Positions 13,473 to 25,736 of a stretch of DNA of 25,736 bases are shown in pieces; position 1 is the stretch's first letter, and each line of letters opens with the position of its first letter. A program made the translations under genes and the position numbers. The DNA is from a virus. Location: positions 1 through 25,736 of the IMG/VR virus record IMGVR_UViG_3300025128_000290; one strand, given 5' to 3'. The notes below the pieces were generated by a model. It saw only the letters and a list, made by a program, of their open reading frames with translations, ran no database searches and was not told where the DNA came from.

Positions 13473-13638
13473 TTTCTATTGTAAGGCGTGCGATCAAGAG
13501 GTAGATTCAGAAGCGTGCAGGCTTGCAGATATAATTGAAACCTCGGGCGGTAGACTATATGTCTTTGAGTGCTGTGACTGTGGAGAGGTATCATCAAGTG
13601 AACTGTTACAGGAGTATCAATATGACCTCGAAAGATAA
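13465..13638 (+). CDS. Small zinc-ribbon protein
   Basis: A 57-residue protein (starts MFSFYCKACD) with Cys pairs CKAC (residues 6-9) and CCDCG (near 36-40), a small treble-clef or zinc-ribbon fold. The start at 13465 is chosen over the longer frame because GGGAG lies upstream and the gene fits an 8-nt overlap. It overlaps the phosphatase start by 17 nt. Function unknown. Confidence 0.65.
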   Translation: MFSFYCKACDQEVDSEACRLADIIETSGGRLYVFECCDCGEVSSSELLQEYQYDLER

Positions 13639-14323
13639 CATCATAAAAGGTATCAATCAGGCCATGAGTGCTGAGATAGATTCTATAACCTACGATAAAC
13701 CTCCCAGTGATAAGAACTCTAAAGTACTACAGAAGAATCCCAACCTGCTGACTGTGGACTGGGAGAATGTGTTACCGGAGCCACCTAAGAATAGCTCAGA
13801 CATAACTCGCAGAGAGCTTGAGCTTATTTCTGATATGACTAAAGAGCTTTCTCAAGAAGAGCATGACTTAATTATGGCTGTGGACGACGATCCCAACAAC
13901 GTGTTTATGTCGTTGCTAAAGAGAATTGGAAAACAGTTTCCGAAGGAGAAGTTTGATGAGTTTTTCTTCAGTCAGGTTGATCCAGTAATCACAAACTTAA
14001 AGTATAAGTATAAGAGGGCTAGACCTTTTCAGTTAGCTGAGAAATATGGAATAGATATTAAAGTCACCGAGACTGAAACACATCATACTCCAGCCTATCC
14101 ATCTGGACATACAGCGTATGCGGCTTTCGGAGGCTCTATGCTCGCAACTCTTTATCCAGAACACACATCAGAGTTTTACGAGCTTATAAACTTAGCTGGT
14201 AGAGCTAGAATTCTACAGGGCGTACACTATCCTTCAGACAACGATGCCTCTATGGTTATAGCATCTGTCCTGTATGAAGATTTGAAATATGAAATGTTTC
14301 CAGATATGAAAATTAGGGGGTGA
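13622..14323 (+). CDS. PAP2-type phosphatase, stop overlaps tmRNA
   Basis: A 233-residue phosphatase with all three PAP2 motifs: K127-x6-R134-P135 (in KYKYKRARP), PSGH (160-163) and R196-x5-H202-x2-S205-D206 (RILQGVHYPSD). The family hydrolyses phosphomonoesters or pyrophosphates through a vanadium-haloperoxidase-like active site. No membrane helices are seen, so it is soluble, and it lacks an obvious signal peptide; class A acid phosphatase-like. GGAGTATCAAT precedes ATG 13622. Its last 8 nt lie inside the tmRNA gene; the stop TGA is 14321-14323 while the mature tmRNA 5' end is G14316. Confidence 0.85.
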   Translation: MTSKDNIIKGINQAMSAEIDSITYDKPPSDKNSKVLQKNPNLLTVDWENVLPEPPKNSSDITRRELELISDMTKELSQEEHDLIMAVDDDPNNVFMSLLKRIGKQFPKEKFDEFFFSQVDPVITNLKYKYKRARPFQLAEKYGIDIKVTETETHHTPAYPSGHTAYAAFGGSMLATLYPEHTSEFYELINLAGRARILQGVHYPSDNDASMVIASVLYEDLKYEMFPDMKIRG

Positions 14324-14655
14324 ATAGGGTTCGACTGGTTGTTAAACTAATAATTGCATTGAGTAGTTGAACGAGTGGCTACTTAAAAAATCGTTCAAAC
14401 TTTTTTAAGTGTAGAAGAGAATTTCGCACTCGCCGCCTAGCGCGGCAGGGGTATCACAGCCCTGTAAACCAAATAGTGATGACGCAGATAACTCTGATAG
14501 AGTATATATACTTGAACTAAATATATATGATAACAATAATTTGTTTGACTCCGATAATCGGATAACTTTGTTTGTTGTGTGATTACAATAAACTAACAAT
14601 GTAGAAACTATTACAGAGGCAATACAGGACGGCGGTTCGATTCCGCCCACCTCCA
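14316..14655 (+). ncRNA. ssrA: tmRNA (one-piece), tag VEENFALAA
   Basis: This is a 340-nt transfer-messenger RNA, which releases ribosomes from stopless mRNA and adds a degradation tag. The 5' end has the hallmark AGGGTTCGACTGG after the acceptor strand GGGGGTG (14316-14322), which pairs with CACCTCC (14648-14654), including the G3-U wobble used by alanyl-tRNA synthetase. The T arm is GGCGG-TTCGATT-CCGCC (14631-14647). A perfect H-type pseudoknot follows: stem 1 TTGAACGA (14367-14374)/TCGTTCAA (14391-14398), stem 2 ACTTAAAAAA (14381-14390)/TTTTTTAAGT (14401-14410). The tag frame starts about 14411 (GTA, with T at -5 and A at -4) and encodes VEENFALAA, ending at TAG 14438-14440. Further hairpins lie at 14432-14464 and 14491-14503. 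CCA is not encoded. Confidence 0.95.
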
Positions 14656-14659
14656 CTTA
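14647..14659 (+). repeat. Direct repeat at tmRNA end, left copy
   Basis: CCACCTCCACTTA occurs here and again at 15158-15170. The left copy spans the last base of the T stem, the acceptor 3' strand, the discriminator and four following bases, and includes the A of the HNH start codon. The two copies bracket the HNH gene; the unit between repeat starts is 511 bp. Confidence 0.85.
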
Positions 14660-15075
14660 TGAATCAACTAAATCTTTTCCACGAAGACGATCATGAAGAC
14701 ACAGACGTAGACAAGTCTGGATACAAAACCTGTCTTAAATGTAAAGAGAAATTGCCAGAACATAGATTTTCTATAAGAGGCAATGAAGGTTTCAGAAGGA
14801 CAGACTGCAAAAGCTGTGTAAAGAAAAGAACTAAACAAGCCGAAAACCTAAAAAAGAAATATGGGAAAGCTCCAGAGGGTTATATTTGTCCGATATGCCA
14901 CAGGGAGCAAAATGAGTTTAGCAGAGCCTTTTCCTTAGATCATAATCATGACACTGGTGAATTTAGAGGATGGCTTTGCCACAACTGCAACACTGGATTA
15001 GGGTTACTTAAAGATAATATTGAAAGTTTACAAAGAGCGATTGACTACCTTTCAAAAGACACAGACACTAATTAG
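14659..15075 (+). CDS. Endonuclease VII-type HNH nuclease inserted at tmRNA
   Basis: A 138-residue HNH nuclease of the T4 endonuclease VII-like group, many members of which act as free-standing homing-type nucleases. There are two zinc clusters: C25/C28 with C50/C53, and C77/C80 with C107/C110. The catalytic beta-beta-alpha-metal motif is LDHNHDTGEFRGWLCHNC (93-110), followed by the family segment NTGLGLLKDN. The ATG starts 3 nt after the tmRNA discriminator base A14655 and there is no Shine-Dalgarno site; the preceding sequence is instead CCACCTCC. So the message might be leaderless after tmRNA 3' processing. The gene is bracketed by two tmRNA tails. Confidence 0.88.
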   Translation: MNQLNLFHEDDHEDTDVDKSGYKTCLKCKEKLPEHRFSIRGNEGFRRTDCKSCVKKRTKQAENLKKKYGKAPEGYICPICHREQNEFSRAFSLDHNHDTGEFRGWLCHNCNTGLGLLKDNIESLQRAIDYLSKDTDTN

Positions 15076-15102
15076 AAGAATGTCGTAGACAATAACAATT
15101 AT

Positions 15103-15166
15103 ACTAAACATGTAGAAGTTAATAATAATATTATGTGGCACGCGGGTTCAAATCCCGCCACCTCCA
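15103..15166 (+). pseudogene. Second copy of the tmRNA 3' tail
   Basis: From ACTAAACATGTAGAA (15103) to the discriminator A15166 the sequence lines up without gaps with the tmRNA 3' end (14592-14655). Including four following bases, 46 of 68 positions match by hand count. It has an intact T arm (GCGGG-TTCAAAT-CCCGC, 15142-15158) and the same acceptor strand CACCTCC (15159-15165). Its helix-2 strand pairs less well with the 5' part of the tmRNA (5 bp against 7 bp for the upstream tail). It has no 5' half of its own. It is most likely the displaced original end or a remnant, though it could still act as an alternative end. Confidence 0.82.
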
Positions 15167-15170
15167 CTTA
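15158..15170 (+). repeat. Direct repeat at tmRNA tail, right copy
   Basis: Exact second copy of CCACCTCCACTTA (left copy 14647-14659). The flanking bases differ at both sides, so the repeat is exactly 13 bp. The following 83 nt up to 15253 hold no gene: a T-rich run (CCTTTTTCTTTT) that may aid termination and a small hairpin GCTG-GAGC-CAGC at 15228-15239. Confidence 0.8.
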
Positions 15171-15253
15171 GTAATTATACTACCTTTTTCTTTTGTCCTG
15201 CCCGAACAAGTCTGATCATGGTATAGGGCTGGAGCCAGCTAAAACGAGCAAAA

Positions 15254-16078
15254 ATGAATTCACCAAACGAAAGTTATGTAATACTTGAGCCGAACGGAGG
15301 ATTGATGTGCAACAACCTACTCTCAGTTTCATTTCAAATTCTAATGGCGATGAGGTTTGGCAAGAATGTATCGTTCACAAAATACTCCACAGATGAAATA
15401 GGAGATCATGATGCAGGTTACGCCGGAGGAGAAAACGGAAGCTTTAATCATTTTATTGACTTTGGTAGACTAAAAATTGTAGACAGTCCACAAGAATATC
15501 CTGAGCAGCCCGATAACAAAAATCAAATACTAATAAAGTCATCAAACCTATTGGATATTTTTGCCATATGCCCAGTCACATCAGCCGATAAAGACTTTAG
15601 AATTCATCCTCATCAGTTCTTTCAAGAGTCAATAGCAGCGGAGCATATCAGAAACAATCGAGAAAAGATATTTCATAAATGGCTGATCGAAGATACAACA
15701 GAAGGCATATTTATACATTATAGACTTGGGGATATTGCTGGAGACGATAGAGCAGTCCACATTGAACATTTTGAAAAAGCTGTCACTAGTATTTCAAACT
15801 ACGAAAATTTACCGAAGTATATATCTTCAGACTCCCCAGATGATTCTCGCGTAAAAAAACTTTGCAACGACTACGGATTTTCTATACATCAGTCCTCAGC
15901 CATAGAAACAATTTTGTTTGGGTCTAGATTCACAAACAAGTTGATAAGTTTTGGAACTTTCAGTTGGTTTATTGGTATTCTTGGAAGTCAGAAGAATGTA
16001 ATCATTCCGAACAGAAACGACTATCCAGCGTGGCACGGCGATATATTTAGTTTTGATGATTGGCATGAACTTATATAA
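15254..16078 (+). CDS. Fucosyltransferase-like protein (GT11-type GT-B)
   Basis: A 274-residue protein with the pattern of alpha-1,2-fucosyltransferases and related GT-B enzymes that use GDP-fucose. The N-terminus NGGLMCNNLLSVSFQILMAM (14-33) matches the GGLGNQLFQ-type motif followed by a long helix; FIHYRLGD (153-160) is the HxRxGD-like motif; and the C-terminal FGSRFTNKLISFGTFSWFIG matches the signature near the donor site (SxSTFSWW-type). The match is degenerate (YRLGD for RRGD), so another donor sugar is possible. It is the first gene of the glycan cassette. The ribosome site is weak. Confidence 0.68.
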   Translation: MNSPNESYVILEPNGGLMCNNLLSVSFQILMAMRFGKNVSFTKYSTDEIGDHDAGYAGGENGSFNHFIDFGRLKIVDSPQEYPEQPDNKNQILIKSSNLLDIFAICPVTSADKDFRIHPHQFFQESIAAEHIRNNREKIFHKWLIEDTTEGIFIHYRLGDIAGDDRAVHIEHFEKAVTSISNYENLPKYISSDSPDDSRVKKLCNDYGFSIHQSSAIETILFGSRFTNKLISFGTFSWFIGILGSQKNVIIPNRNDYPAWHGDIFSFDDWHELI

Positions 16079-16143
16079 CTAACATGTGTTTTTTATTGCG
16101 CAGTTATATAAAATATCTAGTAACTGTTTTTTTTGAGGTGTTT

Positions 16144-17013
16144 ATGAAAGACGTTCAGGTTTTTATAATTGAAGACTCAACATCTGTTGAGCAATTTCCG
16201 CAACATGAAGGATATTCTCCAGCTCTAATCGGAATACAAAAGCAAGCAAAGACTCTTGGGGTAGACTGTGACATTGAACTGGTAAATGTCAATGAGCTAC
16301 CAACGAAGAGCGATTCTAGGATTACGTCTATATTCAAGCAGAACTGTCTAGTACATAACAATTACCTTCTGTCTTTGGTTTCTATAAACAACATATATCC
16401 AGAGTCAGCCATTATGTGCGGCTACATTGGAACACTTTTCTCTTCGTTCAACAAAGATTTTTTCGCCTCTAAGTTAGCGTCCTCTTTTAAGTCATATAAG
16501 TTACATTCTTTAGAAAACACTTTGTTATATGACTTAGCTTCTGAGCCTCACAATCTTCCGCCCGCATACAATATATCAATGAACTCTAGGCTATACAATA
16601 CTCTTGGGGGATACTCTTTTACACAAACGCCAAAGGGTGAGATTTTAGATAACAGAAAGTTTATTCTTTCACTTTCAAAAAAAGGTTCTGTGCTTTATTC
16701 TAATATGCTATCAACCATAAACATATTTTCTGCAAATGATATTTCTACTTCTAACATATGCAAATACTTTTATGAGCTTGGATTTACTGCCGCATCCACA
16801 ATAAAGGAGACTGAAAAGCCCCACTTTGAAAGATTTTGGAAGCAGTTTGTTGAGAGTCCAGAGTGTTTAGATCATAGAGTTCTTGGTAATCTAACATTCG
16901 ATCAAACAATACCAGAAGCAGAGAAAAAAGAATACGCCGAGAAGTTGGCTATGATTAGATGCTCTTACCAAGCTGGCTTGTTTGAGGGTCTTTCGGGCGT
17001 GAAAGTATTATGA
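16144..17013 (+). CDS. Unknown protein in the glycan cassette
   Basis: A 289-residue protein starting MKDVQVFIIEDSTSVEQF. ATG 16144 follows TTGAGGTGT; a longer frame from 16084 has no ribosome site. It lacks a signal peptide and membrane helices. The first 80 residues alternate strand and helix (VQVFIIED, DCDIELVNVN) in a Rossmann-like way. I do not recognise a family. It overlaps the following glycosyltransferase by 4 nt, so it is coupled and probably serves the same pathway, perhaps as a divergent glycosyltransferase. That is inference from context. Confidence 0.75.
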   Translation: MKDVQVFIIEDSTSVEQFPQHEGYSPALIGIQKQAKTLGVDCDIELVNVNELPTKSDSRITSIFKQNCLVHNNYLLSLVSINNIYPESAIMCGYIGTLFSSFNKDFFASKLASSFKSYKLHSLENTLLYDLASEPHNLPPAYNISMNSRLYNTLGGYSFTQTPKGEILDNRKFILSLSKKGSVLYSNMLSTINIFSANDISTSNICKYFYELGFTAASTIKETEKPHFERFWKQFVESPECLDHRVLGNLTFDQTIPEAEKKEYAEKLAMIRCSYQAGLFEGLSGVKVL

Positions 17014-17981
17014 TCTCTCTGGATTTATCAAAATGTTATGGATTTGAAAAACACAGAAGTGGATGGGGATATTGTATAAATTCCCTAAAGCCTTACCATT
17101 CAAAATCGGGTATATTTTTTGATGGTTTTCTAGAGCATAACTTCAGCTGGCATATAAGAAAATATATACACGAAGGTTTTGATAGCATACCTTATACATT
17201 TCCGTGGGTTGGTGTAATCCATAATCCTCCTAATCCACCAGACTGGTATGATGTTTACAATTCACCAAAGGCAATGTTTGATAGAGACGTTTTTCAGTAT
17301 TCGTTAAGGTTCTGCAAGGCTATAATATGCCTATCAGATTATTTGGCTAACTGGATAAGAGGTGTCTGTGACACTCCAGTAATATCCGTTAAACATCCAA
17401 CGCAAACCAACTGTAAGAAGTGGGAGCCTATGAGATTCATTAAGTCTGAGAGACCAAAAATATTGCAGGTTGGCTACTGGCTTAGGAGACCAGAATCAAT
17501 ATGCTCCTTAAAGTCACCCTATCCTTACTCAAAAAAATGGCTACCAAGCGAGAATGAATATTCTCTACAAATGCTTAACGCATACAACAAAACTGATACC
17601 AGATTTTTTGATGACCGACATAAGTGGGCCGGTGTAGAAATATTAGACTGGCTTCCTCATCAAGAATATGATGACATATTGACATCTGGAATTGTGTTTT
17701 TAGATCTTTACGATAGCTCAGCAAACAACGCTGTCATTGAGTGTATAGCTAGGAACACACCACTACTTGTAAACAAACATCCTGCGGTTGTGGAATACTG
17801 CGGAGAAGATTACCCTCTATACTTTGATGACCTAGATCACGCATCTAATATACTGCATGACAGAGAACTTATCATTAGCGCACATGAGTACTTCAAAAAC
17901 ATGGATAAGTCTTGGTTAAATGGTGGATACTTCGCCAATGATGTAGTAGCTAAGCTGGGAGAAGTAACAAATGGAAGATAA
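17010..17981 (+). CDS. Glycosyltransferase, GT-B fold
   Basis: A 323-residue protein of GT-B type. The N-terminal half has WVGVIHNPPNPPDW (residues 66-79) and CKAIICLSDYLANWIRGVC; the C-terminal donor half has KILQVGYWLRRPE (150-162), WLPHQEYDDILTSGIVFLDL and SANNAVIECIARNTPLLVNK (about 247-266), which is the nucleotide-sugar-binding helix region with the conserved Glu, as in GT1/GT4-like enzymes. The donor and acceptor are unknown. It overlaps both neighbours (4 nt upstream, 11 nt downstream). Confidence 0.8.
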   Translation: MISLDLSKCYGFEKHRSGWGYCINSLKPYHSKSGIFFDGFLEHNFSWHIRKYIHEGFDSIPYTFPWVGVIHNPPNPPDWYDVYNSPKAMFDRDVFQYSLRFCKAIICLSDYLANWIRGVCDTPVISVKHPTQTNCKKWEPMRFIKSERPKILQVGYWLRRPESICSLKSPYPYSKKWLPSENEYSLQMLNAYNKTDTRFFDDRHKWAGVEILDWLPHQEYDDILTSGIVFLDLYDSSANNAVIECIARNTPLLVNKHPAVVEYCGEDYPLYFDDLDHASNILHDRELIISAHEYFKNMDKSWLNGGYFANDVVAKLGEVTNGR

Positions 17982-19347
17982 AAAATATTATTGCACTAGA
18001 CCCTTTGAGTGGTTTGCCGTTCTCGACAATGGAGATGTTTCTCCGTGCTGCCCGCCTTGGATTGATGGTTATCGCATTGGAAATCTTTACGAACAGTCCG
18101 TAGATGAAGTATGGAATGGCGAAAAAGCTCAGGACTTCAGGCGGTCAATATTAGATGGGTCTTTTGAATACTGCAACAGTCTCTCATGTCCATTTCTACA
18201 GTCCAAGACAGATTCCGTTTTAACGCTACATCAAATTGAAGGCATCAATCCTTTAGTCCATGATGACATAAAGAACAAGAAAACGAAACTAGAACATGGC
18301 CCAAGAGTAATTAGTTGCGAATACGACAGATCGTGCAATTTGGCTTGCCCATCATGCAGAAGAGATTTAATAATGGTGTTCGGAGAAAAGCGAAATAAGA
18401 TTCTTGAACTTCAGGACAAGATCATATCAGAAGCTCTGCCTAGCGCTAAACACTTAACTGTAACAGGATCAGGAGATGCTTTTGCTAGTCCGATATTTAG
18501 AAAGTTACTCCAGCGACTATCCAAAGAAAACGCGCCAAACTTAAGTGACATTCTTATTCTAACAAACGGCTTACTTATTAAAAAATACTGGGAAACACTT
18601 AGTGAGTTCTCTAGGGAGAACATAAACTCTATTTCAATCTCTATCGACGCAGCAACAGAAGAAACGTACATTATCAATAGAAAAGGTGGTAAGTGGAATC
18701 AGCTATTAGAAAACTTGGAGTTCGTTCAAAAACTAAAACAATCAGACCAAGTAGACAGCTTTGCTATGAGTATGGTCGTGCAAGAGAATAACTTTATGGA
18801 AATTAAAGATTTCGTTCTCCTTGCAGAAAAATACGGTGCGGGTTTAGTTCAGCTCCAAATTATAGAGCCAGACTTTATAAGAGATTTAGGTTTTTCGGAC
18901 TATTTTACGGAGTGGGAAAAAAAGGCCATACAGGAAAAGACACACCCTCTACATCAAAAGTTCTTAGAGTTATTGAAAGACCCTTTCTTTGACAAGTACA
19001 TTAATAAATTTTCACATGAGATGAGATTGTCTAAAGAAAAAAGAGAGGAAGAAGTTTTATATATGAACATTGGCCCTCTATACGACCTAAGAGAAGGCAG
19101 GGATATTTCTCAAAGAGATGAAGTCTTGAAGGAAGCGAACATAATTCAGAAAAACTCTCATAAAAAAGATGTTTTTTTTGACGGCAACGTATACTATGTA
19201 AACAATGATGATATTATTTCCATTGACTACACAGATTTTGCTGTTCTCGATACAAAAGTGGTAGTTTTCTGGAACGGATCTTCTTGGGAAGAATGTAAAA
19301 ACAAAGAAAAACTGAGACTCATAGGGATGACAGATGAACAAACCTAG
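17971..19347 (+). CDS. Radical SAM protein with N-terminal SPASM-like cluster
   Basis: A 458-residue iron-sulfur enzyme. The radical SAM motif is C122-x3-C126-x2-C129 (SCNLACPSC), with TVTGSGDAF (163-171) and a later strand LILTNG (195-200) as expected of the core; ISIDAATEETY follows. In place of a C-terminal SPASM domain, a SPASM-like cysteine cluster lies at the N-terminus: C8 (YYCTRPFEW), C26-C27 (GDVSPCCPPW), C68 and C73, with GNLYEQSVDEVWNGEKAQ between, the family's typical run. SPASM proteins modify peptides or sugars by radical chemistry. The rest (residues 310-458) is unassigned. It overlaps the paralogue downstream by 14 nt. Confidence 0.88.
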   Translation: MEDKKYYCTRPFEWFAVLDNGDVSPCCPPWIDGYRIGNLYEQSVDEVWNGEKAQDFRRSILDGSFEYCNSLSCPFLQSKTDSVLTLHQIEGINPLVHDDIKNKKTKLEHGPRVISCEYDRSCNLACPSCRRDLIMVFGEKRNKILELQDKIISEALPSAKHLTVTGSGDAFASPIFRKLLQRLSKENAPNLSDILILTNGLLIKKYWETLSEFSRENINSISISIDAATEETYIINRKGGKWNQLLENLEFVQKLKQSDQVDSFAMSMVVQENNFMEIKDFVLLAEKYGAGLVQLQIIEPDFIRDLGFSDYFTEWEKKAIQEKTHPLHQKFLELLKDPFFDKYINKFSHEMRLSKEKREEEVLYMNIGPLYDLREGRDISQRDEVLKEANIIQKNSHKKDVFFDGNVYYVNNDDIISIDYTDFAVLDTKVVVFWNGSSWEECKNKEKLRLIGMTDEQT

Positions 19348-20476
19348 CAACCTTGACAATATAAATCAAGATGTCACCAGTTCAGATATTCCTGATTTTG
19401 ATACAACTGGATTCTTCTGCGCACAACCCTTTACTAACCTAGAAGTAAACACCCGAGGGGAAGTTAGGACATGCTGCGCATATTGGATGAACCAGACTTT
19501 AGGAAACATAACATTTGACGAAACAGAAAACGTCCTAAACTCAGACACGGCACAGGACATACGGAAGTCCATTCTTGACGGGAGCTTTTCTTACTGCAAC
19601 AAAAAAACTTGCCCCAGAATACAATCTATACCAAAAGGTGGCGACGGAATACTCCAGAGAATAGAAGACGTAGAAGACCAACATCTATTAGATATAATAA
19701 AAAACAAAGAAACGAAGATTGACTCCATAAAATATGTCAACTTCTTGTGGGATTTATCCTGCAACTTGAGATGCCCAAGCTGTAGAGTTTCCACAATATT
19801 GAATACCAAAGGAGAGGCATATGAGAACAGTCTACAAATACAAAATAAAATACTTGACTACGCCCTTCCCTTAGATAGCGACTTAATATTTAACATAACT
19901 GGATCGGGAGATCCTTTCTCTTCAAAAGTTTTTCGAGATTTTCTTACGAGCTTTGATGGTAATAAGCATCCTAACGTAGTTATCAACCTACAAACAAATG
20001 GTGTCATGTTTACTGAAAATATGTGGGAAAAAATGAGCTTATGTCACGATAATATAAGTACTGTTCTAATATCTATTGATGCCGCAACCGAAGAGACATA
20101 CAACAAGGTTAGGGTTGGAGGCAAGTGGGATATTCTAATGAAAAATATAGAGATGGTTGACGAACTTAGGAGGTGTGGTGAAATTGATCGACTTAGGCTC
20201 GACTTTGTTGTTCAGCGACAAAACTACACTGAAATGCCGCAAGCCGTAGAGCTTGCACAATCCTTACTTGGCGTGGACGGGATATATTTTGCGATCCTAA
20301 CAGATTGGGGAACTTGGAGTAGGGATGAATACAAGTGGCACGCCGTATGGATGAAAGAAAATTTAATGCACGAAGATTTTATTCGAGTGCTAAATAATGA
20401 TATTTTTGAAAGTAAAAAGGTAGACTTGGGTAATGTCCGCCACTACTATGAGTTGTCAAGAGGCAAAAATGATTAA
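19334..20476 (+). CDS. Radical SAM protein with N-terminal SPASM-like cluster, paralogue
   Basis: A 380-residue paralogue of the preceding gene with the same order: SPASM-like cysteines C29 (FFCAQPF), C47-C48 (EVRTCCAYW), C88, C93, and then the radical SAM motif C143-x3-C147-x2-C150 (LSCNLRCPSC), NITGSGDPFSS and VLISIDAATEETYNKVRVGG. It lacks the extra 80-residue C-terminus of its neighbour. Two such enzymes side by side suggest two steps, or a heterodimer, in one pathway. The substrate is unknown; the surrounding glycosyltransferases favour a sugar or glycoconjugate. The last 8 nt overlap the glycosyltransferase start. Confidence 0.88.
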   Translation: MNKPSNLDNINQDVTSSDIPDFDTTGFFCAQPFTNLEVNTRGEVRTCCAYWMNQTLGNITFDETENVLNSDTAQDIRKSILDGSFSYCNKKTCPRIQSIPKGGDGILQRIEDVEDQHLLDIIKNKETKIDSIKYVNFLWDLSCNLRCPSCRVSTILNTKGEAYENSLQIQNKILDYALPLDSDLIFNITGSGDPFSSKVFRDFLTSFDGNKHPNVVINLQTNGVMFTENMWEKMSLCHDNISTVLISIDAATEETYNKVRVGGKWDILMKNIEMVDELRRCGEIDRLRLDFVVQRQNYTEMPQAVELAQSLLGVDGIYFAILTDWGTWSRDEYKWHAVWMKENLMHEDFIRVLNNDIFESKKVDLGNVRHYYELSRGKND

Positions 20477-21515
20477 CATAACAGCACCTATAAACACGCT
20501 CGGCTATGGAGTAGCCAGCTATAACATTATTAAAAATCTTTACGGCATAGGTGAGCAGGTCAGCTACTTTCCTATTGGAAATCCTGAACCTCCAGAAGAA
20601 CAAAATTTTCTAAATAGCATGATGTTGCAGTCGCCATCCTCACGGGTTCCGTCAGTTAAGATATGGCATCAGAACGATATTCATCATCATGTTGGCAAGG
20701 GTCTTCATGTGGGATTTCCTATATTTGAGCTTGATAGATTTTCACAGCAAGAAATCTGGAGTATGTCCCACAACGATAAAATTTTTGTCTGCTCGCATTG
20801 GGCAGAGTCGGTTGTTAAAAACGCCATAAGCATCGAAACAAGCGTTGTTCCTTTGGGTGTTGATACAGAACTGTTTCAGCCCTACGAGTCCAAGAGGCCA
20901 GCAACTATATTTTTTAACTGCGGCAAGTGGGAAGTCAGAAAAGGCCATGATGTCCTTGTAGAATGTTTTAATTCTGCCTTTAGTCATTCCGATGATGTAG
21001 AGCTATGGATGATGTGCGAGAACCCTTTTTATAACGACCAACAGCAGAAAGAATGGATTAACCTTTATAAGCAATCAAAGCTAGGAGACAAGATAAGAAT
21101 TATACCTAGACAAAAGACCCATCAGGATGTGTATAACATAATGAAGCAAACTGATTGTGGAGTATTCCCTGCTAGGGCTGAGGGTTGGAACCTAGAACTT
21201 TTAGAGATGATGGCGTGTGGAAAGCAAGTAATAGCCACTAACTACTCAGCTCATACGGAGTTTTGCAACTCTTCCAACTCCATGTTAGTGGATATAAACT
21301 CTATTGAGTTAGCTAATGATGGGGTTTGGTTTAAAGGGAATGGTATGTGGGCATCACTTGATTCAGATGCAATAGACCAAATAATTTCCCACATGAGGTC
21401 GGTACACAACCAGAAGCAACAAGGTTTTTCACATCAGAATATAGATGGAATACAAACATCTAAGGAGTTTTCGTGGAAAAACTCTGCAAAAAATTTCCTA
21501 TGTGGACTAAAATAA
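20469..21515 (+). CDS. Glycosyltransferase family 4-like
   Basis: A 348-residue GT-B glycosyltransferase. It opens MINITAPINTLGYGVASYNI, the glycine-rich acceptor-side loop. The donor domain starts near residue 145 (ATIFFNCGKWEVRKGHDVLV), and the retaining GT4 signature EX7E is E238-GWNLELL-E246, in PARAEGWNLELLEMMACGK. ATG 20469 is preferred over the longer frame from 20433 because AAGAGG lies at the right distance. It is the last gene of the cassette; the next promoter follows within 3 bp of its stop. Donor and acceptor unknown. Confidence 0.88.
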   Translation: MINITAPINTLGYGVASYNIIKNLYGIGEQVSYFPIGNPEPPEEQNFLNSMMLQSPSSRVPSVKIWHQNDIHHHVGKGLHVGFPIFELDRFSQQEIWSMSHNDKIFVCSHWAESVVKNAISIETSVVPLGVDTELFQPYESKRPATIFFNCGKWEVRKGHDVLVECFNSAFSHSDDVELWMMCENPFYNDQQQKEWINLYKQSKLGDKIRIIPRQKTHQDVYNIMKQTDCGVFPARAEGWNLELLEMMACGKQVIATNYSAHTEFCNSSNSMLVDINSIELANDGVWFKGNGMWASLDSDAIDQIISHMRSVHNQKQQGFSHQNIDGIQTSKEFSWKNSAKNFLCGLK

Positions 21516-21517
21516 GT

Positions 21518-21546
21518 TTGCAAATACCTCTTGCGCATGCTAGAAT
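21518..21546 (+). promoter_or_regulatory. Promoter ahead of the holin-like gene
   Basis: TTGCAA (21518-21523) and TAGAAT (21541-21546) are separated by 17 nt. The overlapping string TACCTCTTGC (21525-21534) also occurs at 353-362 next to the first promoter. The gene start is 42 nt downstream of the -10 box, behind TAAGGAG. Confidence 0.6.
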
Positions 21547-21587
21547 ATTTGCAGTGACCAAGTATCTTTTTAATAAGGAGAAAGAAT

Positions 21588-21761
21588 ATGGTAGATAAGC
21601 TAAAAGGCTTAGTAAAGTCAAAGCGTTTTTGGACTGCTATCGGTACTCTTGTTACCGTATGTCTTCAAGACGTTGTTGGCATCCCGCCAGAAACAGCAAC
21701 TAGTATTGTTGCGGTTGCTGTAGCTTGGATTGTAGGTGATTCTCTTCGTCCAACGGAGTAG
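21588..21761 (+). CDS. Small holin-like membrane protein
   Basis: A 57-residue protein starting MVDKLKGLVK. A basic N-terminal stretch is followed by KRFWTAIGTLVTVCLQDVVG (residues 12-31) and a second hydrophobic segment ETATSIVAVAVAWIVGDSL (35-53). This resembles small phage proteins often called holins (KSRKFWxAxxG...IPEE...AYIVGQ-type pattern). Two short helices in under 60 residues fit pore formers. Own promoter (21518) and own terminator (21789) make it a single-gene unit, which is plausible for a lysis timer. Function is inferred from pattern only. Confidence 0.65.
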   Translation: MVDKLKGLVKSKRFWTAIGTLVTVCLQDVVGIPPETATSIVAVAVAWIVGDSLRPTE

Positions 21762-21788
21762 ACATAAATAGAGAATCATGATTCTGAG

Positions 21789-21818
21789 TCCAGCACAAGA
21801 AGTGCTGGATTCTTTTTT
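21789..21818 (+). terminator. Rho-independent terminator
   Basis: A perfect 8-bp stem, TCCAGCAC (21789-21796) and GTGCTGGA (21802-21809), with a 5-nt loop, followed by TTCTTTTTT. It closes the unit of the holin-like gene. A second small palindrome GAATCATGATTC lies just upstream (21773-21784). Confidence 0.9.
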
Positions 21819-21833
21819 AACTAGGAGTAGCGA

Positions 21834-22079
21834 ATGAATATTGATTTTATTGTAGCGGCAGAGTCGCACTACAAGGCAAAGATGGATGAAGCTGGATTAA
21901 CAATGAGAATTTATATGAACTCACCTGCCGGCATTGGAGAACACCCACAGGTATTCGAGGAATTCAGAAAGTCCCTTGAAGATTTCCAAAACGCCAGAGA
22001 AGTTTTTAACCTCGTGCAAGAACTTAAAAGCCAGTATCTAAAAGCTCAAGAGTCTAAAGAAGATGAAGAAGAAAATTAA
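21834..22079 (+). CDS. Hypothetical acidic helical protein
   Basis: An 81-residue acidic protein (starts MNIDFIVAAE) with TAGGAG before the ATG. The second half (FEEFRKSLEDFQNAREVFNL, then VQELKSQYLKAQ) is helical and the end is strongly acidic (ESKEDEEEN). It overlaps the next gene by 17 nt. No family recognised. Confidence 0.7.
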   Translation: MNIDFIVAAESHYKAKMDEAGLTMRIYMNSPAGIGEHPQVFEEFRKSLEDFQNAREVFNLVQELKSQYLKAQESKEDEEEN

Positions 22080-22455
22080 GATAAGCCTTATTGCTGTGGC
22101 CTTCGATAACAAGTACGACACGTTTAATAAGAAAAGAAACAATGTACTGCTCCACAGAGATAAACTACCACATACCTTTCTTATGTCCGAAAAGACTATA
22201 GAAGAGGCGCTGGAAAAACTTACACAAAAGTATTTAAACTTCCACTTTAAATGGCTAGACATTAACTTGGTGGGTTTTAGAAACATAGACGAAGCAACCT
22301 GTGAGGCTATATACTTTACCCAGTTCCCGTACTCGTCAGGATTTAACAGCCTCGGTACTCCGACTAACTTGTTTGATTCCGACCTAGCAGAAAAATTAGG
22401 AGACTACTATCTTGAAACAATCTCAAGACACACCACTAGAAAGTTCGTTCTCTGA
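22063..22455 (+). CDS. Hypothetical protein, faintly Nudix-like
   Basis: A 130-residue protein (starts MKKKIKISLI). The layout of NNVLLHRDKLPHTFLMSEKT, IEEALEKLTQKY and LVGFRNIDEATCEAIYFTQF recalls the beta-grasp order of Nudix proteins, but the Nudix box (GX5EX7REUXEEXGU) is absent, so catalytic Nudix activity is not supported. It may be an unrelated family. The ATG lies inside the previous gene and the last 44 nt overlap the next. Confidence 0.65.
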   Translation: MKKKIKISLIAVAFDNKYDTFNKKRNNVLLHRDKLPHTFLMSEKTIEEALEKLTQKYLNFHFKWLDINLVGFRNIDEATCEAIYFTQFPYSSGFNSLGTPTNLFDSDLAEKLGDYYLETISRHTTRKFVL

Positions 22456-22726
22456 TTCAGCATACTTTTTATGCTGGACAGACAAAGAGACAAAAGATAT
22501 ATTTTTTAAGTGCGGATGGGGAGACACACTAGAGGATGTAGCTAATTTTGCTTTTATGCTTTATAAAATAAACAGTGGAGAGTATGAAAACAATATATTA
22601 GATGTACTGAAACATCAAACCGAAGATACCAATGACTTGAGCGTCTTTATGGAGTTATATTTCAAATATAAGAACGATAAACATTCAGATTTAGTTGTTC
22701 CTCCCTCGATGGTACACTTAAAATAA
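22412..22726 (+). CDS. Hypothetical protein, TTG start
   Basis: A 104-residue acidic protein. The start appears to be TTG at 22412 behind TAGGAGA (22397-22403), since no suitable ATG lies upstream. Contents include YFLCWTDKETKDIFFKCGWG and LEDVANFAFMLYKINSGEYE. No membrane segment and no recognised family. A TATAAT (22731-22736) follows the stop and might serve the next gene, but no convincing -35 box accompanies it. Confidence 0.65.
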   Translation: MKQSQDTPLESSFSDSAYFLCWTDKETKDIFFKCGWGDTLEDVANFAFMLYKINSGEYENNILDVLKHQTEDTNDLSVFMELYFKYKNDKHSDLVVPPSMVHLK

Positions 22727-22768
22727 TGTGTATAATATGTAGTAACACCTACTAAAAGGAGGTATTCT

Positions 22769-23416
22769 ATGTCTGTTAACAAAAAAATAGCTTGGCAAAG
22801 CTGGAACGCCGTTGTAGAGGAAATGTACGAAAAGAATACTGAGATAGAAATTCTTGAGGAGCTTTTACTAGCTCAAGAGATGCAGGAGTCTCATGGTGAA
22901 ATGCCTATAAAATTTATTGATCCAGCACCAAGGGTGATTTACACGCCCTACGGTATGTTTCCAGCTGATTCTTTTTTGAAGCCTTCAGATAGATGGAATT
23001 GCTGGCTAGGTTACACGAATTTTGATATAACCCATGTTGTTCAGGATATTTTGGAAGAAACAGAAGGCGTTGAAGCTATAAAGACACTAGGAAGATACAC
23101 TTTTTTTATAGGAGTGGGAAAACTTTTTAATCCTACGGATGTTAGACTAAATATTGAGAACATACTTACCGATACTACTCATATAAGTAGCCCTGAAGCT
23201 GTCTCCAATGAAATTAATGACGCAATAGAGTCAATAAAGAGTCAGGTAAGCGCTAAGAGGTACTGGTCTATATTTGTTTCCTCTGTAGGTGAAATTGATT
23301 ATATCATGTCCGATGCTCTCGATGAGCAGTATCTGCATGAGTTAAATAAGTTTGAAGATTTACGTCAAAAAATTGGTGGTATTATAATTAGGAGTTCAAA
23401 TGAACAAAAATATTGA
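22769..23416 (+). CDS. Hypothetical conserved-looking phage protein
   Basis: A 215-residue protein with a near-perfect AAAAGGAGGT ribosome site. It is acidic. A helical N-terminus (EEMYEKNTEIEILEELLLAQ) leads to an aromatic-rich segment (YTPYGMFPADSFLKPSDRWN, then CWLGYTNFDIT at residues 78-88) and a C-terminal helical part. No signal peptide, membrane helix or catalytic motif is seen. It overlaps the sigma-like gene by 17 nt and may be a virion or regulatory partner. Family not recognised. Confidence 0.75.
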   Translation: MSVNKKIAWQSWNAVVEEMYEKNTEIEILEELLLAQEMQESHGEMPIKFIDPAPRVIYTPYGMFPADSFLKPSDRWNCWLGYTNFDITHVVQDILEETEGVEAIKTLGRYTFFIGVGKLFNPTDVRLNIENILTDTTHISSPEAVSNEINDAIESIKSQVSAKRYWSIFVSSVGEIDYIMSDALDEQYLHELNKFEDLRQKIGGIIIRSSNEQKY

Positions 23417-23846
23417 TGAAGCTGTTAAGAATATTGATTACAAAAGAATTATGGATAAAGTTTGCTCGAAGTATAGCAGATATGTTGACGAAGACGATCT
23501 GTCTTCAATCAGACTGCACACCTTGTGGCAATGTTTAAATAAATTTGATCCAGAAAGAAAGGTTAAATTCACTACTTATCTTTATCAGCAACTAACATTT
23601 GCTATAAAGAATCATCTTAAAAAGCAGAGGAGAGAGTATACAAATATTCCGTTCTCTGTACGTCAGCGTCAAGATGTAGACATTGATATTGCTTTGCTAG
23701 ATATGCCTAGAGAAATGGCTAAGTTAATTGAGCAAAAATATGTTTCTCGAATGACCATGAACGAAATTGGCCAAGCGAACGGCTATAGCCGTGAAACTGC
23801 CAGAAGAAGATTAAAGAAAGCGGTTGAATACTACAAAAGCACCTAA
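23400..23846 (+). CDS. Small sigma-like factor (regions 2 and 4)
   Basis: A 148-residue protein resembling a minimal sigma70-family factor. Residues 32-78 (EDDLSSIRLHTLWQCLNKFD, then KVKFTTYLYQQLTFAIKNHLK) follow region 2, which binds RNA polymerase and the -10 element. Residues 106-146 (MAKLIEQKYVSRMTMNEIGQ, then YSRETARRRLKKAVEYYK) form a region 4-like helix-turn-helix. The stretch between is short, with no region 3, as in ECF sigmas and T4 gp55. Lying ahead of a probable structural gene, it is a candidate late sigma factor. AGGAG lies before the ATG. It overlaps the next gene by one base (TAATG). Confidence 0.82.
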   Translation: MNKNIDEAVKNIDYKRIMDKVCSKYSRYVDEDDLSSIRLHTLWQCLNKFDPERKVKFTTYLYQQLTFAIKNHLKKQRREYTNIPFSVRQRQDVDIDIALLDMPREMAKLIEQKYVSRMTMNEIGQANGYSRETARRRLKKAVEYYKST

Positions 23847-24481
23847 TGCGCATAGAGCTACTTTGCAACGAACCAAAATACCCAGATATACTGGCTTGCA
23901 TATTTGAAGGCAGCGAGAGAAGAGTCGATCAAATATGTACGCCTTCTGGGATAGTTCCTCGAATTGACGAATCCTTCATTCGTGAATATTGTAACTTTTC
24001 AGGCATAGTAGACTTTCCATATGGTATTTCTGAAACCCGCATAAGAGTGCATGAGATATTGTTATGCGAAAAACGTGGCATAAAAACAATAGACCTTGTA
24101 ATAAACAGGCATGACCTAGAAAGCTCTAACCTTTTTGCTATTAGGAAAGATTTTAAGACCTGCTACGAAGCCTGTAGGGTCAATAAAATCCACATAAGGC
24201 CGGTAATAGAATATAGATTAGCAGAGCCAATGTTTATTGAAGAGCTGTGCTTTTCTCTCAGGGAAAACGGGGCTTCTGAAATAGTACTAGGTACAGGTTC
24301 TATGGTTGATGATGTGCTAGATAATATTATATCATCAAAGCTAATAGAAGATAAACTAGGTCTTTCTGTCATAAGCTGCTCGCCCATTCTCTCTAGCGAC
24401 CATTATAATATGTTTTATGAATCAAAAATACATGGAATTAGGGTAAAGTCTTATAAGATACTCAATAATTTTGTGTATTAG
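23846..24481 (+). CDS. DeoC-like aldolase homologue lacking the Schiff-base lysine
   Basis: A 211-residue TIM-barrel protein similar to deoxyribose-phosphate aldolase. Matching elements are CTPSG (31-35), IVDFPYGISETRIRVHEILL (54-73, like VxGFPxG...K..E), IDLVINRHDL (82-91), IRPVIEYRLAE (117-127) and GASEIVLGTGS (142-152). The family motif at the last site is V-K-T-S-T-G, with Lys forming the Schiff base; here it reads V-L-G-T-G. So the catalytic Lys appears replaced by Leu148, and activity as an aldolase is doubtful. It might use another mechanism or be a binding protein. It begins within the stop of the sigma-like gene. Confidence 0.7.
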   Translation: MRIELLCNEPKYPDILACIFEGSERRVDQICTPSGIVPRIDESFIREYCNFSGIVDFPYGISETRIRVHEILLCEKRGIKTIDLVINRHDLESSNLFAIRKDFKTCYEACRVNKIHIRPVIEYRLAEPMFIEELCFSLRENGASEIVLGTGSMVDDVLDNIISSKLIEDKLGLSVISCSPILSSDHYNMFYESKIHGIRVKSYKILNNFVY

Positions 24482-24551
24482 ATATTAGGAACTGGACTCT
24501 TTCGGATAATTGTGGGAACATATTAATTTTTTCGTATAGGAGTCATATATC

Positions 24552-25211
24552 ATGGCAGTTCCAAGTGGACATCACATTTTTCCTTATGCCAACGTGCAAG
24601 CTCAGGGTGGTACTATCTTAAACAATAATAGTACCAGTACAGATAGAATCACTAAGGCTTTTGAAATTCTTACCGCAGTTGCTGACGCAGCTGACACCAA
24701 CACTCTCCCTAAGATTACCGCCAGCGGAATCTATAACGTACACAAACCTCTTACAGGCGGAACATTCGCCTATTCTGAAGCGGGCAAGTACGTTCTATCT
24801 CGTGTTTCTGATACCCTTTCTGGGGCATCTAATACTAAGCTTCTCTTTATGGGCGCTGGACAGAGACAGGCTATCCATAGATTCAAGCACGATTTTGGCG
24901 CCAAGCTATTGACTGCTTGGAGACAGAATCAGTTTAGCTGGTTAGGAACCCTTGACAGTGGAGCTAAGATCACCAACATGAGAACTCAGTGGCTCAACAG
25001 CGGTGGTACAGCAGCAGCTTCTGCTGACACGCTCAGCACTACTAACATGTGGGACCCAGTCGCTGGATCGACCTCAGCTAATAGTGATAGCGCAGCCAAT
25101 CCTACCCGTGCCGTACCGGGTGAATTCGTTATGAAAGTTGACTTTGTTACCATTAACATCGGAGCCGGTGCTGGTGACTTCTTTGACTACAAGCCAATCA
25201 CTGGTATGTAA
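24552..25211 (+). CDS. Probable structural (virion) protein
   Basis: A 219-residue protein rich in Ala, Gly, Ser, Thr and Asn with no Cys, the composition of phage surface proteins. It starts MAVPSGHHIF and has segments SGIYNVHKPLTGGTFAYSEA, FMGAGQRQAIHRFKHDFGAK and FVTINIGAGAGDFFDYKPIT. No specific family is recognised; head fibre, decoration or tail protein are all possible. It stands as a separate unit, with TAGGAG before the ATG, a 70-nt leader region (24482-24551) and a strong terminator 8 nt after the stop codon, which suggests high late expression. Confidence 0.7.
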   Translation: MAVPSGHHIFPYANVQAQGGTILNNNSTSTDRITKAFEILTAVADAADTNTLPKITASGIYNVHKPLTGGTFAYSEAGKYVLSRVSDTLSGASNTKLLFMGAGQRQAIHRFKHDFGAKLLTAWRQNQFSWLGTLDSGAKITNMRTQWLNSGGTAAASADTLSTTNMWDPVAGSTSANSDSAANPTRAVPGEFVMKVDFVTINIGAGAGDFFDYKPITGM

Positions 25212-25218
25212 TAATCCC

Positions 25219-25250
25219 GAGGGGGAGTTAACTCTCCCCCTCTTTATTTC
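25219..25250 (+). terminator. Rho-independent terminator
   Basis: GAGGGGGAG (25219-25227) pairs perfectly over 9 bp with CTCCCCCTC (25234-25242), with a 6-nt loop, followed by TTTATTTC. It sits just after the stop of the probable structural gene. Confidence 0.92.
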
Positions 25251-25270
25251 TTTCACGAGGGGAAAACCCT

Positions 25271-25552
25271 ATGGACTGGGCATCATTCAACGATATAGCG
25301 CAACTAATAGGCTTGATAGCACTACCTGCAATAGGCTGGGTTTTTCACACAGTCACGAAGCACGGGAGTAAATTAATCATGCTAGAGGAGAAAGTTAACG
25401 ATTCTATCCAAAGAAGAATGGATTCTTTAGAAAATAAGGTTGATGGATTAGAGGTAAAGATAGATAATAAGATAGACAAATTAGAAGATTCGCTTCATCA
25501 AACTCAGCTAGACGTTACTGAGAAGATACTAAAAGCGATCAATAGCAAATAG
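25271..25552 (+). CDS. Membrane protein with coiled-coil tail
   Basis: A 93-residue protein (starts MDWASFNDIA). One membrane helix is predicted at about residues 10-28 (AQLIGLIALPAIGWVFHTV), followed by a long heptad-patterned helix (RRMDSLENKVDGLEVKIDNK, IDKLEDSLHQTQLDVTEK) to the C-terminus. The layout (N-terminal anchor plus coiled coil) resembles spanin or holin-partner proteins of phages, but no family is firmly recognised. The ATG follows CACGAGGGG. Confidence 0.72.
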   Translation: MDWASFNDIAQLIGLIALPAIGWVFHTVTKHGSKLIMLEEKVNDSIQRRMDSLENKVDGLEVKIDNKIDKLEDSLHQTQLDVTEKILKAINSK

Positions 25553-25562
25553 GAGTTTTTTT

Positions 25563-25736
25563 ATGGCAAACAAAGAAGAAGTATTGCAAATGTTGGAAGC
25601 TATTAACGGTGGAAGTTATCATCGTCGTGACTTAGCTAGGGTTTTTGAAAGCATGGTTGAAGCACTAGGTTTCGCACCTGCACCTGCACCTGCACCTGCA
25701 CCTGCACCCGCCCCTGCTCCAGCCCCTGTAGAGGAG
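25563..25736 (+). CDS. Protein with Ala-Pro repeat, 3'-truncated by the window
   Basis: The first 58 residues are visible: a helical N-terminus (MANKEEVLQMLEAINGGSYH, then RRDLARVFESMVEALGF), then nine Ala-Pro units (residues 38-55) and VEE. The frame remains open at the window end. Ala-Pro tracts form stiff linkers, so a further domain probably lies beyond the edge. AGGAG lies before the ATG. Likely a virion or virion-associated protein, by context only. Confidence 0.7.
   Translation, partial: MANKEEVLQMLEAINGGSYHRRDLARVFESMVEALGFAPAPAPAPAPAPAPAPAPVEE
25674..25727 (+). repeat. Hexanucleotide tandem repeat coding for Ala-Pro
   Basis: Nine 6-bp units based on GCACCT run in the coding frame. 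The first five units are identical, then they become GCACCC, GCCCCT, GCTCCA and GCCCCT, so the DNA repeat decays while the Ala-Pro protein sequence is kept. The identical part could vary in number by replication slippage. Confidence 0.9.

Follow-up and report, generated by a model that had tools for sequence, protein, structure and literature searches.

A nuclease gene between two tmRNA 3' ends in a T4-like marine phage: a probable case of intronless homing

Endonuclease genes at tmRNA and other phage genes

The endonuclease genes known at tmRNA genes are LAGLIDADG genes within group I introns, which lie in the T loops (PMC11915505); in the literature searched, homing at tmRNA was described only by way of such introns, and no report of a free-standing nuclease at a tmRNA was found. 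Genomic islands at ssrA displace the native tail and restore the tmRNA (e.g. PMC3146451). Free-standing homing enzymes, for their part, are known for co-conversion and for their position at the boundaries of exchanges between phages (PMC13096335, PMC12724721, PMC10448857), and one such homing enzyme, F-CphI of cyanophage S-PM2 (PMC6083498), is encoded 66 nt behind psbA. SegB of phage T4 acts at tRNA genes (PMC13096335 and references therein).

Here we describe, in a 25.7-kb virus record of IMG/VR (hereafter the window, meaning the whole stretch of 25,736 nucleotides that was analysed), a nuclease gene that begins immediately 3' of a complete tmRNA and is followed by a second tmRNA tail. The same record carries a T4-type rIIA gene (PHROG 612, E 6.8e-126). 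Like F-CphI, the encoded protein is a small free-standing phage nuclease with a zinc ribbon and a C-terminal Endo VII motif, and its gene lies just behind its presumed target gene; however, the target of F-CphI is the protein gene psbA, whereas that in the window would be a tmRNA, and an intron shields F-CphI's own locus, whereas the window has no intron and shielding would rest on a diverged, split target. The Seg proteins of T4 (SegF, SegG and SegB) are GIY-YIG enzymes. The locus resembles theirs (PMC13096335) in having a free-standing nuclease, empty alleles in relatives and co-conversion of the flanks; in the window, however, one helix of the flanking RNA gene has been altered on its two strands, and the former tail is still present. 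As with the LAGLIDADG genes in group I introns, a homing endonuclease gene would be found at the tmRNA 3' domain, but here without an intron, after a complete tail and from another nuclease family. Finally, as in the ssrA islands (PMC3146451), the native tail has been displaced and the tmRNA restored, although the insert has neither an integrase nor an identical att repeat over the tail, its breakpoint is internal and the 5' end of the tmRNA was exchanged as well. A structured RNA poses an extra problem as a target in comparison with a protein gene, in that the two strands of a long-range helix have to be altered jointly. Judging from comparative sequence analysis, we consider it probable that a free-standing DHHRN homing endonuclease gene colonised the tmRNA 3' end of a T4-like marine phage, by intronless homing with co-conversion of the flanks.

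A mosaic tmRNA and its empty counterparts

Table 1. Features of the tmRNA locus, in window coordinates
Feature	Position	Strand	Basis
PAP2-family gene, upstream	13622-14323	+	PF01569, E 2.6e-13; 97% to L097
tmRNA, one-piece, complete, mosaic of two allele types	14316-14658	+	RF00023; alignment with 27 family members
tmRNA 5' end (acceptor 5' strand, D-like region, P2 5' strand), foreign type A	14316-14386	+	comparison with L053
pk3 region, native type B	14505-14558	+	54 nt identical to L097
Tail 1 (pk4, P2 3' strand, T arm, acceptor 3' strand), foreign type A	14545-14657	+	113 nt identical to L053
Exact 13-nt repeat CCACCTCCACTTA, first copy	14647-14659	+	exact runs
Endo VII-type nuclease gene, 138 aa, C-terminal DHHRN motif, N-terminal zinc ribbon	14659-15075	+	PF02945
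Right junction spacer	15076-15091	+	match to native pk4 not significant, shuffle p ~0.8
Tail 2, orphan, native type B (half of pk4, P2 3' strand, T arm, acceptor 3' strand)	15092-15169	+	identity to L097
Exact 13-nt repeat CCACCTCCACTTA, second copy	15158-15170	+	sequence

An initial annotation, made from the letters alone, had described a tmRNA followed by a nuclease ORF and a second tmRNA tail, and this arrangement was borne out (Table 1). Rfam family RF00023 matches the tmRNA with 107.1 bits (E 2.9e-41) and independently detects tail 2 (E 3.7e-12, with a score under the family's gathering score); ARAGORN, run on the window, did not detect the tmRNA that Rfam detects, and no second full tmRNA was found in the window by either program. 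The tag frame of the tmRNA, GAA GAG AAT TTC GCA CTC GCC GCC TAG, reads EENFALAA-stop. At a distance of 511 nt from each other, the two tails align without a gap over 68 nt, as first reported, with 45 positions alike rather than the 46 counted by hand. Placed elsewhere in the window, on both strands, tail 1 reaches 34 of 68 at the next best place, and 14-24 in neighbouring registers, so that the similarity of the tails is real. The exact 13-nt repeat said to be common to both was found at the two positions given in Table 1. A diverged remnant of pk4 left of tail 2, an idea formed by eye, was rejected (not significant, shuffle p ~0.8).

Three relatives were found through the PAP2 gene upstream: L097 (97% amino acid identity), L098 (91%) and L099 (62%). 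Each has one intact tmRNA with a single tail, which corresponds to tail 2 of the window, and none has the nuclease gene; empty alleles thus exist in similar phages, as the insertion at the tmRNA proposed at the outset would predict, and none of the three has both tails. Identity to tail 2 extends over 15092-15189 in L097 (98 nt), over 15097-15182 in L098 and over 15097-15179 in L099, and in the flank downstream of the tail 70 of 77 nt are alike in L097, 65 in L098 and 43 in L099; in L097 the single tail is joined straight to the flank that starts at 15171 in the window. Because L099, the most distant of the three, is also single-tailed, the simplest view is that the window form is derived. On this comparison, tail 2 is native, and tail 1 and the nuclease gene are incoming.

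The tag core is common to 30 viral contigs, to which complete counts are limited; a pattern scan of contigs for the tail gave at least 120 stretches. An Endo VII gene scoring above the Pfam cut-off is absent from all 30 records searched for it (L057 and contigs of this tmRNA group), and weak matches below the cut-off occur in two, the records of L121 and L064. Genome contigs searched for the tmRNA group gave one phage-like member (L246) and five chance matches, and BLAST of the locus against known phages found no relative of the window tmRNA.

Two main end types, A and B, are present in the tmRNA family. Type A (L053, L064, L079, L088 and L091) starts with GACTGGTTGT and ends with GGACGGCGG, GGACGCGGG or similar, and type B (L097, L098, L099, L101, L117 and L120) starts with GACCAGTAATAAAG and ends with TGTGGCACGCGGG. 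The window tmRNA combines the two: its 5' end is of type A (94.4% to L053, 77.5% to L097), its pk3 of type B (100% to L098 and L099, 66% to L053, over 14501-14553) and the part from pk4 to the acceptor again of type A (99% to L053, 68% to L097). Exact runs join the window to L053 over 14314-14346 as well as over the whole of tail 1, and to L097 over pk3 and from tail 2 into the flank. At the sites that distinguish L053 from L097, the window tmRNA mostly has the A letter up to pk3, where 17 B letters follow one another, and beyond pk3 it has A again as far as the tail, a clustering that was matched by none of 100,000 permutations. The breakpoints sit in short stretches common to both types (12 and 14 nt); the left breakpoint of the incoming segment is at 14545-14558, and the insert measures about 530 nt. 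The backbone of the window is L097-like (91.4% DNA identity over 16085-25704, 9.6 kb), whereas that of L053 has about 70% DNA identity to it where alignable. Given this backbone and the exact runs to L053, the type A ends were acquired from a distant phage, and recently. The tmRNA of L113 combines an L097-matching type B pk4 with other P2 strands, an indication that recombination between tmRNA modules takes place in this group also where no nuclease gene is present; pk3 varies among the type A members.

Helix P2 connects the 5' and 3' ends of the tmRNA. Type A and type B strands of P2 pair poorly across types: over 11 family members, the mean duplex energy is -15.0 kcal/mol for a tmRNA's own strands, and -8.2 and -6.9 kcal/mol when a type A 5' strand is combined with a type B 3' strand and a type B 5' strand with a type A 3' strand, respectively. 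The 5' strand of the window pairs at -10.2 kcal/mol with tail 1 and at -7.1 with tail 2, and the native 5' strand with tail 1 at -5.6 kcal/mol. When longer strands are taken, the window 5' strand reaches -13.6 with tail 1, and its value for tail 2, -7.1, is no better than that of shuffled sequence; the native 5' strand and tail 1 then reach -14.5, but in a different register that uses nucleotides beyond P2. Because the native 5' strand and tail 1 pair poorly, a unit that brought tail 1 only would have broken P2. Both strands of P2 were replaced by matching type A strands, and pk3 stayed native; the exchange may have been one patchy event or two events, or the donor may already have had a type B pk3. 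Tail 2 has no 5' half of its own in the window, in which no second tmRNA is present and the P2 5' strand pairs with tail 2 no better than with shuffled sequence (p 0.56); as a functional alternative 3' end, tail 2 was rejected on this pairing.

A DHHRN nuclease and a second nuclease gene at the same position

The 138-residue product of the inserted gene matches Pfam Endonuclease_7 (PF02945, E 3.4e-20, motif at residues 71-132), which confirms the endonuclease VII-like identity first assigned to it, and PHROG 2633 (E 1.9e-27). An alignment of homologs reveals the cysteine pairs of an N-terminal zinc ribbon, and D94, H95, H97, R103 and N111 are invariant across 27 homologs; D, H, H, R and N are the residues that define the DHHRN endonucleases, in which the motif is mostly C-terminal, whereas it is mostly N-terminal in DHHRN resolvases (PMC6083498). 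With F-CphI the protein aligns end to end (32% identity over 22-133), whereas the alignment with T4 gp49 (Endo VII) is confined to the catalytic part plus the helix that follows. The C-terminal position of the motif and the length of the alignment assign the protein, at the level of sequence, to the endonuclease clade of the DHHRN family. Among PDB sequences the best match is Hpy99I (5e-24 over 13-137), and T4 Endo VII matches with 5e-5 over 61-124; Hpy99I, a restriction enzyme, is also the best structural match (Foldseek E 4e-7) of a model predicted from 27 homologs (mean pLDDT 85.6). A tree did not settle the position of the window protein. No tRNA genes were seen adjoining its closest relatives in other viruses, and among the records with nuclease relatives only one has any tmRNA, which is not adjacent.

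A different nuclease gene is found in L079 and L081 (one insert on two contigs), where a type A tmRNA is followed by an HNH gene of PHROG 3322 (E 1.2e-22), for which Pfam gave no family above cut-off. The stop codon of this HNH gene is followed by ACCTCCACTTA, the 11-nt end of a family tail, and next by the gene MSDYS..., which in L088 starts straight at the tmRNA tail. In 4.26 Mb of DNA, counted on both strands, there are 26 copies of this 11-mer; L079 itself has one, and 200,000 random 30-mers of local composition contained none. Thus, in the window and in L079/L081, two nuclease families stand at one position, with a complete tail on one side and a tail remnant on the other.

Intronless homing and its alternatives

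Under intronless homing, the nuclease gene would have stood behind the type A tmRNA of a donor phage. When donor and recipient infected the same cell, the nuclease would cut the type B tmRNA of the recipient in or near pk4, and repair would copy pk4, the P2 3' strand and the T arm of the donor, together with the nuclease gene, into the break; an exchange on the left side would also import a 5' strand of P2 that fits, likewise of type A, leaving the hybrid tmRNA able to fold, and the old type B tail would end up downstream of the inserted gene. Once filled, the locus would be protected from its own nuclease, part of the native pk4 being replaced by diverged type A sequence and the rest split off by 0.5 kb. 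Of the native pk4 of L097, 24 nt between GACTCCGATAAT and ATAACAATTATAC are missing from the window locus. The cleavage target would be expected between these two sequences, because the native pk4 there was destroyed by the insertion; tail 2 would not be the whole target, because it is itself intact. No surrounding intron or intein is present (no intron family was matched by cmscan, and the tmRNA is complete before the ORF begins), and the type A ends, of the donor type seen in L053, adjoin the nuclease gene, as expected from co-conversion of a flanking target gene. Homing is also favoured by L079/L081, where the corresponding position is taken by a different nuclease gene, again accompanied by the remnant of a tail. 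We infer that the empty allele is cut by the nuclease, that this cleavage brought about the exchange, and that there is a donor carrying the nuclease gene; among the type A members, L053, L064, L088 and L091 lack this gene, and a donor combining it with a type A tmRNA was not found in the searches, which excluded records very close to the window. This negative result speaks against homing, and so do three further observations: the native pk3 between two type A segments requires patchy or repeated exchange or a donor with a type B pk3, modules of the tmRNA family are swapped without a nuclease, for example in L113, and the closest viral relatives of the nuclease are not beside tRNA or tmRNA genes. 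The locus keeps the donor type, the recipient type and the displaced tail within less than 1 kb, which makes the target site, the conversion tract and self-protection testable, and it suggests a concrete route for swaps of tmRNA ends between phages. A broader reading, which we offer only tentatively, is that unrelated endonuclease genes, bringing their own tmRNA ends, might settle at the tmRNA 3' end again and again, and that the nuclease might drive the replacement of tmRNA alleles by cutting one P2/pk4 type and putting the other in its place, both helix strands as a unit, so that one end type would sweep the phage population at the expense of the other.

Passive mosaic recombination of two tmRNA loci, in which a type A end and a nuclease gene beside it would have become linked to a type B tail, with the nuclease as a passenger and not the driver, seems to us unlikely, if a serious contender. 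It would be in keeping with the nuclease-free swaps of modules in the family (L113, and the differences in pk3 among type A members) and with breakpoints in shared stretches of 12 and 14 nt, but speaking against it are the two different endonuclease genes at one spot in the family, both with a complete tail in front and the remnant of one behind, and the end-to-end alignment of the protein with a proven homing enzyme, F-CphI (PMC6083498). An assembly chimera of two phages co-occurring in the metagenome is highly improbable: the locus is known from a single contig, but at least four switches within 0.9 kb would have been required, at shared stretches of 12-14 nt or at none, each preserving a coherent tmRNA. 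Stretches of 12-14 nt are shorter than common assembly words.

The initial annotation had likened the locus to an ssrA island, in which a self-contained unit supplies a fresh tail. That tail 1 came in and the native tail 2 was displaced agrees with this; the island-like unit does not. An integrase-type genomic island at ssrA, or the decayed remnant of one, has very little to recommend it beyond the insertion at the tmRNA 3' end, the displaced tail and the 13-nt repeat. The insert is about 530 nt long, with the 138-aa nuclease as its only notable ORF, and no integrase family was matched among the proteins scanned, in line with the initial annotation, which had noted the lack of an integrase. 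Moreover, the crossover does not lie in an identical att block at the 3' end, the left breakpoint falling at pk3/pk4 inside the tmRNA, about 100 nt upstream of its 3' end, and the P2 5' strand was exchanged too. As the tails differ at a third of their positions, they are not an att duplication. That tail 2 still functions, whether in a permuted or two-piece tmRNA, as an alternative 3' end or by way of a group I intron, is scarcely conceivable: both intron-bearing and permuted tmRNAs have been described (PMC11915505), and this phage group itself includes permuted ones, but cmscan matched no intron family, let alone one interrupting the T loop, the pairing of tail 2 with the window 5' strand is at shuffle level (p 0.56), and tail 1 is complete and better paired.

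The stop codon of the PAP2 gene (TGA) falls inside the 5' acceptor strand of the tmRNA, GGGGGTGA (14316-14323); the same overlap is present in L097 and L098, and in L099 a different gene intervenes. The start codon of the nuclease gene adjoins the tmRNA 3' end, with no Shine-Dalgarno sequence (14655-14661), and in L088 (3680-3690) an unrelated small gene begins at the equivalent spot; where start codons abut the tmRNA 3' end, translation may be linked to 3' processing of the tmRNA. Downstream, a glycosyltransferase-like gene at 15254-16078 (PHROG 2644, E 4.3e-6) has no counterpart at the same place in L097, and L099 holds another gene there, which makes this a second variable site directly behind the tmRNA; a pattern scan for relatives of this gene found none. 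In L079 (9260-10250) and L081, CCA is encoded by the tmRNA gene, and the T arm (GGCGGCTTCGATGCCGCC) is odd; in L057 (minus strand), an unrelated tRNA-rich phage, an HNH-like ORF lies directly behind the tmRNA. Permuted phage tmRNA was previously known from Melnitz (PMC9004378). In the present phage group, circularly permuted, two-piece tmRNAs occur in L060, L106, L110, L112/L118, L115 and L119; they have the same tag core as the one-piece forms, and RF04321 matches L060 at 91.7 bits. The presence of permuted and one-piece tmRNAs within one related group could reveal the origin of the permutation.
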